From: Artemia franciscana
Lineage: Eukaryota; Arthropoda; Branchiopoda; Anostraca; Artemiidae
NCBI RefSeq assembly: GCF_032884065.1
Contig: NW_027062689.1
Coordinates: forward strand, 1,798,001-1,862,000
Direction: 5' to 3'
DNA: 64,000 nt
A model generated the notes under the pieces. The model was not told the origin of the DNA. It searched no databases and worked only from the letters and a program-made list of their open reading frames with translations. How positions within the stretch are numbered: the first letter of the stretch is position 1; the number at the start of each line of letters is the position of its first letter. Shown here one piece after another: positions 6,482 to 38,400 of the stretch. The translations under genes and the position numbers were made by a program.

Positions 6482-6779
6482 ATTAAATAAAAAACAAGTT
6501 TTTTGAAGTGAAAGTAAGGAGCCATATTAAAACTTAAAACGAACAGAAATTACTCGGTATATAAAAGGGGCTGTTCCCTCCCCAATGTCCCGCTCTTTAC
6601 GCTAAAGTTTGACTCTTTCTCGCAACTCTACTTTTTAAAACAGTAAAAAACTTCAGCGTAAAGAGCGGGGCATTGAGGAGGGAACAGCCCCTTTTATATA
6701 CGGAGTAATTTCTGTTCGTTTTAAGTTTTAATATGGCTCCTTACTTTCAGTTAAAAAAAAACTTGTTTTTTATTTAATT
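6482..6779. repeat. Hairpin A of E1 (long inverted repeat)
   Basis: The arms are about 130-145 bp and start ATTAAATAAAAAACAAG at 6482, with the complement ending at 6779. The inner arms meet at CTCTTTACGCTAAAGTTTG / CAGCGTAAAGAGCGGGG, with a loop near 6612-6645. Arm identity is high. Confidence 0.85.
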
Positions 6780-7065
6780 TCTGAACGTTTTTAAATTAAG
6801 GCATGTTTCGATTTTGGCTCTCCGCACATGAATAATTGAAACGAAATTTGTATATTAATTTATTTTTATGGCTAAATGGCTTTCTCATATTTTTGATCGG
6901 ACGATTTCGAGAAAAAAGGAGCGGGGGAGTAGGCATAGTTACCCTCCAATTTTATGGTTATTTAAAAAAGCAACTAGAACTTTTAATTTTTTACGAACGT
7001 TTTTATTAGTAAAAATATACGGAACTTACGAATTAGCTCAGGTAACGAACTTCTATATTCGCATG

Positions 7066-35400: not shown

Positions 35401-38400
35401 CTTTTCTTTCTCAACGCCCCGCTCTTTACGCTAAAGTTTTTTACTGTTTTAAAATGTAGAGTTAAGAGAAAGAGTCAAACTTTAGCGTAAAGAGCGGGGT
35501 GTTGAGAAGGAAAAGCCCCTTTCATATACGGAGTAATTTCTGTTCGTTTTAAGTTTTAATGTCGCTCCTTACTTTCATTTAAAAACTTGTTTTTTTATTA
35601 TTTAATAATAATAAGAATGAAAGTTTCCCAAAAAGGATGCGATCTTGTTGGAAATTATGCTAATGGACTGCTCCCTCCTTAGTTCCTGGCCTTCTATTCT
35701 AAAGTTTTACTCTTTGTTTCAATTTCTTTAAAAACGACTGCTCAAGCAATAAGTTGGAATAAGAAGTAGTTTTGAAGCAATATAAAACTTTAGCGTAAGA
35801 CAGTCCCCTTATATGCGGAATGATTTCTGTTCCTTCTAAGTTTTGACATCGCTCTTTACTTTCGTTTGAAAGAAGACTGTTTTATTTTAAAATTCAATAC
35901 TTGAGTTGTCATTGAAGCCTGATTGTTTTAGGCGCTTACAATGGCTGACCCGGTGTTTTTGTGGAAAGATAGAATTGTAACAACAAGGAAATTTTCTGTC
36001 GGAAGAAAAGGGCAAAATTGAAACTTAAAGGAGTCGAATTTATTTTATTTTTTTAACTGCTACACATGTCTTTAAAATTAGTGCAAATAAACCCACGTAC
36101 AATATTTCTTTATGTTTACTAGCACCATGCTAAAACAGCATCTTGCTGAAAAAAAAATCTAAGAATTTCTATGCAGTAACGGAAAAATTAAAGGTTTTAC
36201 TATGCTATTATGGTATAAAATTAAGCACTTACGATGTTTAATTGATTTAAATTCCCTTAATTTGGTTTTACTTCTGGAAATCGAGTCTATTCCCGTGAAT
36301 GGCTAAATTTTCAGCATTTAAATTTTATGGCGAGATAAGTCTGAAGTGAAGCTGTCCTGAGTGTCTTGGGACTATAAACTAACACCAGAAGTCTCACCCT
36401 CACTTGAAATTTCCCGTTCTATATTCAGAAATAACCAGATTGCTATTACGGTTTTTGACTTTGAGTGGTTCTAAGGTGTGTTTCGACAGTTTAAAGTTTT
36501 TCTGTTGGAGCTATGATAATTCGGCTGGTGAGATCAATGAGTTGCTTGATAAATCATCGTTTTATTTTTGTTTTCCTTTTGTATGAGACAGTAAAACAGT
36601 ATCGCTTTTTTGCGTTTTTACAGTAACTTAAGTTGTATTCTGAAGTCGCGTTCGTTCCATATGTTCTGCACCCTTAGGAATAATTTTTTGGCTCCTAAAA
36701 CAACAATCTTGTTTGTTTGTTTGTTTTTTTTTATGACTGGGTTTTGTGTTGTTTATTTACTGGTTTTGTATATGTATGTTGCCTAGGATGAGAAGTTATA
36801 GTTTCTGTTCGTTTTAAGTTTCAATTTTGCTCTACTTCTGCCAGAATTTCTTTTTTTTCATTAATAATAGAGAAACAGCTACCTAATCAAGTTGAAATTT
36901 TGAAGACAAGCTCCTTAATCCAAGTAATACAATTGTGTTCTAATTACCGTGCCGTACTAATAGCAGAGAAATAAGATTGAATTAAGTAGGAAACGGAACA
37001 AACATGATGGCTTATTGTGATGCTTATTGTGACGCTAATCAAAAGGTTATGACGAGCTTGAGAAGCAGTGAGGGAAGGACCACCTAGCCGAGTAGATGAC
37101 ACGCGAGTGTTACATGCTCCTTGGAACGAGGTTTTGAGTCCTAGCGTAGCGAATACTTTGGCTTCGGGCAGGAGTCAGTGATGTGGCTGCTAGCTCAGTC
37201 GTCCTTACGTACACAGGGCGAAAGCCGAGCGTATAGTTGTCTCTCCATTAGGAATGAAAATGAATGTATCTAAACCAAAGAGAAAGAGTATTAAAATTAT
37301 TTTTGACTCGGTTTAGGACCCTTTGACTACTGCAGTTCGACAAATAGAAGATTTTAACTTTGTCCCAGACAGAAAGGTGGGAGGCTGTTGGTTACGTCAA
37401 ATTACAAATCAAGAAGCCGTTCAGCCGAGGAAAAGAGCTGTCGGCAGGAAAATCGATGTCAAGTCGGAAAAACCTCAGAAACTTGTGATAAAATTAAAAG
37501 AACCTTTCGACAGGTAATAATTTCTGTTTCTTTTTTCTTGGTATTTTTTCCTTATCTTCTATTTCGAAGATAGAATTTGATGAAAAAATAATAGAAAATC
37601 GGATACCCAAAAAATCCCTCTAAAAATAATTATAAGCAGACTTTATATTAACTGGCTTAAAATGTTTCCATTCCACTTCCTGGACCACTTATTAACTAGT
37701 GTAAAAAAAAAGACAAATTGACCAGAGCGCTTTAAGTAAAAATCCCTAATATTTGCATAGAATTTTGATTAAGCATTGACTGCGAAAACAATATGATAAA
37801 AATATTACTAGTAGAGAATAATCTCATTATCAGTAGAACATAGTGAGTATAAGCGAACTTTATCTTGCTCTAAAGCTCCAACCCCATGCCCCATATTTCT
37901 GGTGAAGGATTTGCATAGTGTATTCGATTAAACATCGGATAATAAAATTTTTATGTTTTGTGATTCTTGCGCTGTTAGTAGTATGTAAAAGTACTTATTA
38001 TTCTTTTTAGCATTTTAATTTTCTTATTGCTGTTATTATACAATTGAATGTGTGAATAAATACTGACTTCTAAGATACAGAAATATTTCGCGGGTTTTTG
38101 CTAAATTCTAACATTAATCTTGCCCTTCAATCAGTTGTAAAAGTTTTATTTGCAAGTGACGGGTCATCTTCATAAAAAGACATTTTTAAAATATGCTTCA
38201 ATAGATTTCTTAGCAAAGTTGCAATTTTTTTATCTGTTAAATATCTTTACTTTATTTTGCTTCCTACACTTGAACTAAAATTAAACTTGACACAGTTTCT
38301 TTAAGTAAGATTATGGATCTAAAATTGAACCGTCTTTAGTAAATTTTTATAGCACTGCTAAAAGCGTTGGGCGCATTTTTTTTGACTTCTTCTCGTTTCG

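Follow-up and report, generated by a model that had tools for sequence, protein, structure and literature searches.

Arms that are more alike within an element than between elements were reportedly described by Izsvak et al. in 1999 for the Angel MITEs of fish, and fold-back replication is said to have been proposed there. Angel elements are, reportedly, TIR-type MITEs without rolling-circle-like ends.

It is already documented that palindrome arms evolve in concert and that the segment between inverted repeats can be inverted (PMC6649704, PMC3004938). The long arms of perfect inverted repeats in nematomorph mitochondria change together, and template switching was proposed as the route (PMC6649704); that case concerns mitochondrial coding genes and no mobile family, whereas the sequence described here allows a mobile phase to be told apart from a resident one. 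Recombination between the TIRs of Wolbachia IS elements likewise inverts the segment between the repeats and homogenises the repeats themselves (PMC3004938), but there the TIRs are of 23 bp, the whole element is inverted, the hosts are bacteria and 2 of 22 loci are concerned. Arm homogenisation is absent from the extract of the Helitron2/FoHeli account (PMC5148889), and in the open-access papers searched we found no description of it in Helitron-like elements or Artemia Helentrons.

The hairpin analysed here lies in several copies in a window of 64,000 nucleotides (the whole stretch of DNA that was analysed) from the 1.27 Gb assembly of Artemia franciscana, a genome of which Helitrons form 8.81% (PMC11492255). 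Beyond the known cases, mobile and resident phases are told apart here, a second hairpin serves as internal control, and loop flips are recorded in a Helitron-like family.

The element family and its ends

The elements of a large non-coding mobile family with Helitron2/Helentron-like termini begin, at the 5′ end, with a foldback, hairpin A. Its arms measure ∼131 nt and its loop ∼43 nt, in a whole element of ∼1.7 kb. The copies in the window, and the parts of the E3 copy referred to below, are as follows.

6482–8127, plus strand: E1, full element of subfamily E1; hairpin A at the 5′ end, arms ∼6482–6610 and 6648–6779; ends placed by eye
8915–10295, plus strand: E2, 5′ part, interrupted by E3; hairpin A ∼8915–9214, hairpin B ∼9510–9690; ends by eye
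11998–12338, plus strand: E2, 3′ remainder beyond the nested E3
10296–11997, plus strand: E3, full young element inside E2; 131-bp perfect hairpin A arms
10328–10339, plus strand: E3, 5′ subterminal repeat AGTAAGGAGTGA (AGTAAGGAGCGA in the E1, E2 and E5 consensuses)
10880–11061, plus strand: E3, hairpin B core, imperfect, with fixed left/right differences; internal control
11960–11971, minus strand: E3, 3′ subterminal repeat, TCGCTCCTTACT on the plus strand, the inverse of AGTAAGGAGCGA
19755–20888, plus strand: E4, older, shorter, divergent relative; hairpin A-like 5′ end, 3′ module as in the others; ends by eye
30411–32132, minus strand: E5, full element; hairpin A ∼31836–32132; ends by eye
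33883–35606, minus strand: E6, duplicate of E5 in a ∼3.47-kb tandem duplication; hairpin A ∼35310–35606; ends by eye
48515–50067, plus strand: E7, 5′-truncated copy that starts inside the hairpin A loop and has no left arm; ends by eye

E2 and E3 do not form a tandem array, a reading we rejected since E3 sits within E2; the 341-bp ‘tandem’ repeat of the E2 3′ module exists because of this nesting. As E5 and E6 belong to one tandem duplication, they were treated as one case, which leaves five independent window copies. At least 39 further E1-like places occur in the genome.

The ends are sharp in all but four of the 30 aligned E3-family loci, E3 among them, the exceptions being L037, L049, L051 and L059, which are broken. 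The 5′ end reads (A)TTAAAT, and in this alignment the first base of the element is the first base of the hairpin A stem. The 3′ end of these loci is CAGTTCGTTACCACGAACTGTTTGA; in E3 it consists of a hairpin, CAGTTCGTTACCACGAACTG, and then TTTGA (11973–11997). The end motif CGAACTGTTTGA follows the spacer further downstream in 38 of 40 E3-family loci, and is absent from the examined stretch of the other two (L063 and L064). The left-arm consensuses of E1, E2 and E5 contain the 12-bp AGTAAGGAGCGA, which the E3 left arm has with one mismatch; the inverse of AGTAAGGAGCGA lies just before the 3′ hairpin in several copies, including E1, E3 and E7. No target duplication was seen, as judged by eye, in the flanks of the E3-family loci, and the nested copies L042, L046 and L048 show both target halves without duplication (again by eye, with one A ambiguous).

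Two features of Helentrons and HINEs are thus present: asymmetric subterminal inverted repeats of at least 11 bp and, near the 3′ end, a short palindrome. The family resembles the non-autonomous Helentrons termed HINE or DINE-1 (PMC4067079) in being non-coding and abundant, in its subterminal inverted repeats, in the small palindrome near the 3′ end, in showing no target duplication by eye and in favouring T at the 3′ flank. The spacing departs from that of mite HINEs in the same source: in E3 the 5′ repeat lies 32 nt from the end (2–4 nt in mite HINEs), the 3′ repeat 26 nt (38–60 nt) and the 3′ palindrome 5 nt (8–35 bp). In addition, HINEs have a short inverted repeat at the 5′ end and insert beside TT, whereas here there is a hairpin with arms of ∼131 bp and the left flank prefers TYYT at −11 to −8, the 5′ flank not being TT. 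Helitron2/FoHeli elements (PMC5148889) share asymmetric terminal inverted repeats and a hairpin at both termini, although the 5′ hairpins given there measure a few bp. Helitron2 inserts before T or C (PMC5148889), and among 38 E3-family loci the base after the 3′ end is T in 29 and C in 5.

Two other assignments were rejected. A canonical Helitron1 would have 5′ TC and 3′ CTRR, and the ends here are (A)TTAAAT...CTGTTTGA; a TIR transposon or MITE does not fit, as both long arms lie at the 5′ end and no target duplication was seen by eye. Its end anatomy is what would tie the family to a rolling-circle enzyme. The first 301 nt of E3 are predicted to fold as single-stranded DNA at −158 kcal/mol (z −36.9). 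Comparison with Rfam gave no match at gathering score, so that a known RNA family is not supported, and a scan of viral contigs with the 3′ end gave 0 matches.

Agreement between the arms of hairpin A

The first-pass annotation, made from the window alone, had reported these hairpins and claimed that their arms covary copy by copy. Near-perfect arms were indeed found at those places: 6499–6610/6648–6759 (95% identity), 8911–9056/9072–9217 (84% ungapped), 10295–10425/10457–10587 (131 nt, 100%), 31836–31932/32039–32135 (89% ungapped) and 35310–35439/35477–35606 (94%). The arm variants it had named are present in both arms in our alignments, with the arms of E5/E6 differing slightly at theirs (CTTTTCCTTC in one, CTTTTCTTTC in the other). 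Over a core of ∼98 nt, the mean distance between the arms of one copy was 0.057, against between-copy means of 0.163 left–left, 0.144 right–right and 0.151 left–right, and the true arm pairing was the best of 120 pairings of the five independent window copies. The claim stands within the window; among the copies sampled beyond, it holds by subfamily, most private variants being in one arm, and ‘copy by copy’ should rather read ‘subfamily by subfamily’. Clustering of arms by side, the pattern named in advance as contrary to the claim, was found for E5/E6 (E5L–E6L 0.010 and E5R–E6R 0.010, versus 0.031 for E5L–E5R), and there on the time scale after insertion.

Genomic copies were located by their resemblance to the spacer that follows hairpin A on its downstream side rather than by their arms, and each sample is the best-scoring 40 of 775–5968 first-look candidates per subfamily. 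The E3 sample comprised 40 copies including the window copy, the E5 sample 38 besides the window pair, and the E2 and E1 samples 39 each besides the window copy. The E2 sample (89–91% identity) is a mixture of subfamilies, and the query with the E1 spacer included 15 nt of the right arm at its outer edge, which are not part of the scored core. Both arms were available in 123 of the 161 hairpin regions (E4 included); the other 38 fell short of 90 of the 100 core bases in the left arm only (26), the right only (2) or both (10). CpG sites were set aside in the totals quoted for private alleles, alleles in 2–3 copies and commoner alleles. A further set, L001–L030, was picked by similarity to the E1 hairpin and serves for illustration only, because it was selected on arm sequence. 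In that set, cells that depart from the consensus are mostly one-arm.

The first point to note is the agreement of the arms at the level of subfamilies. Twelve sites separate the subfamily consensuses, and at 11 of them left and right arms match in each of the four subfamilies. At the remaining one, site 71, they agree in three, E2 being mixed (A/A in 12 copies, C/C in 10 and discordant in 5, so that 22 of 27 copies are concordant); indeed, the mixed E2 sample contains several arm haplotypes, mostly matched across arms. The left and right consensuses differ solely at E2 site 71 and at the CpG site 76 of E1. Between subfamilies, the mean LL, RR, LR and RL distances are equal within 0.011, which leaves no memory of side.

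Covariation was counted in 38 of the 123 hairpins, at plus-strand loci picked for ease of reference. Changes on both sides were seen in 23 of 103 stem pairs, and two-sided cells numbered 156, as against 47 (sd 5) after shuffling and 6–21 with slid partners; further pair types in this count were not above the shuffles (285 of 500 as high). Two-arm cells also exceeded the maxima of 2000 right-arm permutations in every subfamily, with 16, 49, 22 and 5 in E1, E2, E3 and E5 against 15, 27, 13 and 4, respectively. The E1 arm mismatch count (140) was not under every permutation (minimum 138).

Single copies give a different picture. Across the four subfamilies, the two arms share only 10 of the 177 private non-CpG variants. 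The two-arm share climbs with allele frequency, to 20 of 188 non-CpG cells for alleles in 2–3 copies (168 one-arm) and 62 of 101 for those in at least four (39 one-arm), the difference between private and 2–3-copy alleles not being significant (p 0.09). One-arm cells in the latter two classes may reflect recurrent mutation or inherited arm mismatches. The ratio of two-arm to other changes is 11:2 between subfamilies, with sites 71 and 76 counted against, versus 10:167 for private variants (Fisher p 1e-10). An alternative between-subfamily tally is 12:1. The private two-arm variants cluster, with three in L081, two in L056 and two in L168, and such clusters may mark older lineages or rare conversion in resident copies.

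The E3 sample allows rates to be compared. After two of its 40 copies (L037 and L049) were dropped, 111 stem pairs yielded 31 one-arm and 6 two-arm private events, that is, with each variant taken as one event, 37 in 8436 arm bases or 0.0044. A 460-nt downstream stretch in 37 copies (L051 also dropped, homopolymers masked) gave 63/14053 = 0.0045. Thus, private variants in the E3 arms accrue at about the neutral rate. The spacer rate of 0.0037 was dropped as a yardstick because the copies had been picked by spacer similarity. Inherited E3 variants, at sites 25, 32, 42 and 48, are two-arm in 24 cells, with L043 as the sole exception, where one arm has changed further. Eleven other cells with multi-copy alleles are one-arm, at recurrent sites and at site 77, the last common to the duplicates L063/L064. 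Some E3 copies are derived in both arms at sites 25, 42 and 48 and ancestral at 32, and others are derived at all four; given these successive two-arm changes inside E3, we rejected the birth of the hairpin de novo once per subfamily.

The ratio of same-copy to other-copy arm distance is 0.91 (0.79–1.01) in E5 and 0.89 (0.72–1.01) in E1, with a permutation p of 0.002 in each. Arms of the same copy are clearly closer in E3 (0.50) and E2 (0.68), both of which mix sub-subfamilies. Copies duplicated after insertion, E5/E6 and L063/L064, have kept and gained one-arm differences and no others. At the CpG site 76 of E1, 12 of 23 copies have T on the left and C on the right; this mismatch looks inherited, which suggests that homogenisation is not obligatory in each cycle. 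Resident copies are rarely corrected, and the arms of lineages that make new copies are repeatedly homogenised. The arm-to-arm homogenisation put forward in the first-pass annotation is hence upheld at the subfamily sites, in the two-sided stem pairs and in the inverted loops described below, but not in resident copies.

Loop orientation and the hairpin B control

The loop of hairpin A is inverted in three of 122 complete hairpins, L095 (E5), L123 (E2) and L159 (E1); of the hairpins that are not complete, L083, L134 and L143 also have a reverse-complemented loop. For E4 and another five incomplete regions the loop-orientation scores were low or nearly equal. As inverted loops are found in three subfamilies, they arose more than once. 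A search with the inverted hairpin core returned nothing, and the hairpin alone cannot reveal loop orientation. The natural cause is exchange between arms or strand switching across arms, and the inversions could reflect in-place recombination after insertion. An origin of the inverted loops in the assembly, which was built from 20-kb PacBio libraries and polished with Pilon using short reads (PMC11492255), is unlikely.

Hairpin B, in the same elements, shows no such homogenisation. In the five window copies, the same-copy left–right distance (0.164) equals that between copies (0.164), and the left–left and right–right distances are 0.106 and 0.058. No private variant common to both arms of hairpin B was found in 24 E3-family copies, these being the ones kept from 30; one (L051) had an unrelated right arm. 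Since hairpin B retains fixed left/right differences, the method can detect a memory of side.

Explanations for the homogenised arms

The arms of hairpin A are homogenised in mobile lineages, rarely so after insertion, and hairpin B is exempt; we think it probable that this comes about through correction of a foldback. During replication for transposition, a strand that is displaced or looped out would fold back at hairpin A, and a mutation in one arm would then be copied to the other or overwritten from it, by intrastrand template switching or by mismatch repair of the foldback. Rare resolution of the foldback could flip the loop. Such events would not be needed in every cycle; long, near-perfect arms would remain eligible, and the short, mismatched hairpin B would not. 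Arms would be expected to diverge about as fast as neutral DNA because each arm mutation is copied or erased at random. That the correction accompanies transposition replication is what we infer from these patterns.

The main rivals to correction at transposition are slow in-place conversion and a snap-back resynthesis of the left arm. The former supposes gene conversion between the palindrome arms where they stand (through a cruciform, sister template switching or homologous recombination), acting constantly, in all copies and independently of transposition. Loop inversions are the expected product of a crossover between arms, inverted repeats in chromosomes are documented to be actively maintained (PMC6649704), and the slightly closer same-copy arms of E5 and E1 are significant even there. 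However, the same/other-copy ratios are only 0.91 and 0.89, 167 of 177 private variants are confined to one arm and accrue in E3 at the neutral rate, and the E5/E6 duplicates cluster by side, all of which makes this explanation unlikely.

Somewhat more doubtful is the possibility that some cycles lose the left arm, or leave it incomplete within the loop, and that it is then made anew on the right arm as template, always from right to left. The stem does begin at the first base of the element, E7 begins within the loop, and a complete right arm accompanies an incomplete or absent left arm in 26 of 161 regions, as against 2 with the reverse; but copies were sampled through DNA beside the right arm, so that a bias towards left truncation is expected. 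Moreover, resynthesis alone is insufficient for inverted loops, which require exchange, and the E1 site 76 difference has been kept in 12 of 23 copies.

Selection on folded DNA or RNA, the alternative offered in the first-pass annotation, would operate if only well-paired hairpins transpose or escape silencing, with compensatory changes building up. We regard it as less probable again, and it is not required by the data. Two-arm changes are concentrated in lineages with descendants, covariation is strong, and right arms diverge slightly less than neutral DNA (0.099 versus 0.117–0.120). Overall, however, the arms of the window copies diverge at near-neutral levels (RR 0.099, LL 0.118, spacer 0.120, downstream 0.117), and double hits would be slow. 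The two-arm changes are somewhat rich in transitions (13:4 versus 227:147 in one-arm changes, p 0.22, not significant), but 4 of the 17 robust ones are transversions, for which there is no G–T wobble intermediate, and near-perfect identity across ∼131 bp would seem more than stability requires. A transition/transversion contrast among singletons was rejected as evidence, being biased by the omission of recurrent transitions and not significant when recomputed. Finally, an assembly or polishing artefact is very improbable: whilst a 131-bp inverted repeat can mislead the short reads used by Pilon, 20-kb libraries should span the hairpin, many copies on separate contigs have the subfamily variants in both arms, and one-arm variants survive in E3 at the neutral rate.

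One sequence is thus observed both mobile, when it is homogenised, and resident, when it rarely is, with a control hairpin in the same molecule. This ties the homogenisation of arms to the propagation of the element itself and not to the host genome in general, and it provides an indirect way to test whether a single strand prone to folding back is a stage of Helitron-like transposition. It is also a warning that arm covariation in a repeat family is by itself no evidence for a functional RNA structure. More tentatively, it is possible that the two-arm changes and loop flips are fossils of single-stranded foldback passages in rolling-circle-type transposition, the one-arm changes serving as a clock of residence. 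If true, the genome would preserve a record of the single-stranded intermediate through which a eukaryotic Helitron-like element passes.

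A probable inherited arm mismatch and possible hairpin processing

Hairpin A is the foldback at the 5′ terminus of this non-coding Helitron2/Helentron-like family, and one position in the core of its aligned arms, the CpG at site 76, reads T on the left and C on the right in 12 of 23 copies of the E1 subfamily. This difference is probably an arm mismatch that has been passed on through transposition. In a genomic copy with an incomplete hairpin, sampled beyond the window (L083), the right arm has lost the stretch that joins its inner end to its outer one. The loop of this copy is inverted, and the copy is possibly a product of hairpin processing.

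The 5′ flanks

The 5′ flanks of 98 copies show a preference for T-Y-Y-T at −11 to −8 from the first base of the element, with the seven intervening bases only weakly constrained. The T-Y-Y-T may be a recognition site set off from the joint.

Surroundings of the copies in the window

The following features were noted, the three coding-like readings having been recognised by eye:

~19365–19510, exon-like stretch with a BTB domain-like reading
25466–25720, long TA microsatellite
~28750–35690, tandem duplication of ~3.47 kb holding copies E5 and E6 (both minus strand) plus flanking DNA, its halves 93–100% alike over the listed stretches
35811–35894, degenerate relative of a hairpin arm adjoining E6 (74% over 84 nt)
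50487–51287, 266-aa ORF encoding a number of zinc fingers of C2H2-like type
53502–54329, ORF of 275 aa similar to a non-LTR reverse transcriptase fragment

Where it lies, the microsatellite accounts for the bulk of what the repeat finder listed, inverted and direct repeats alike, and it is unrelated to hairpin A. Taken together, the C2H2-like ORF and the BTB-like stretch suggest that the repeats may lie in introns of a BTB zinc-finger gene.
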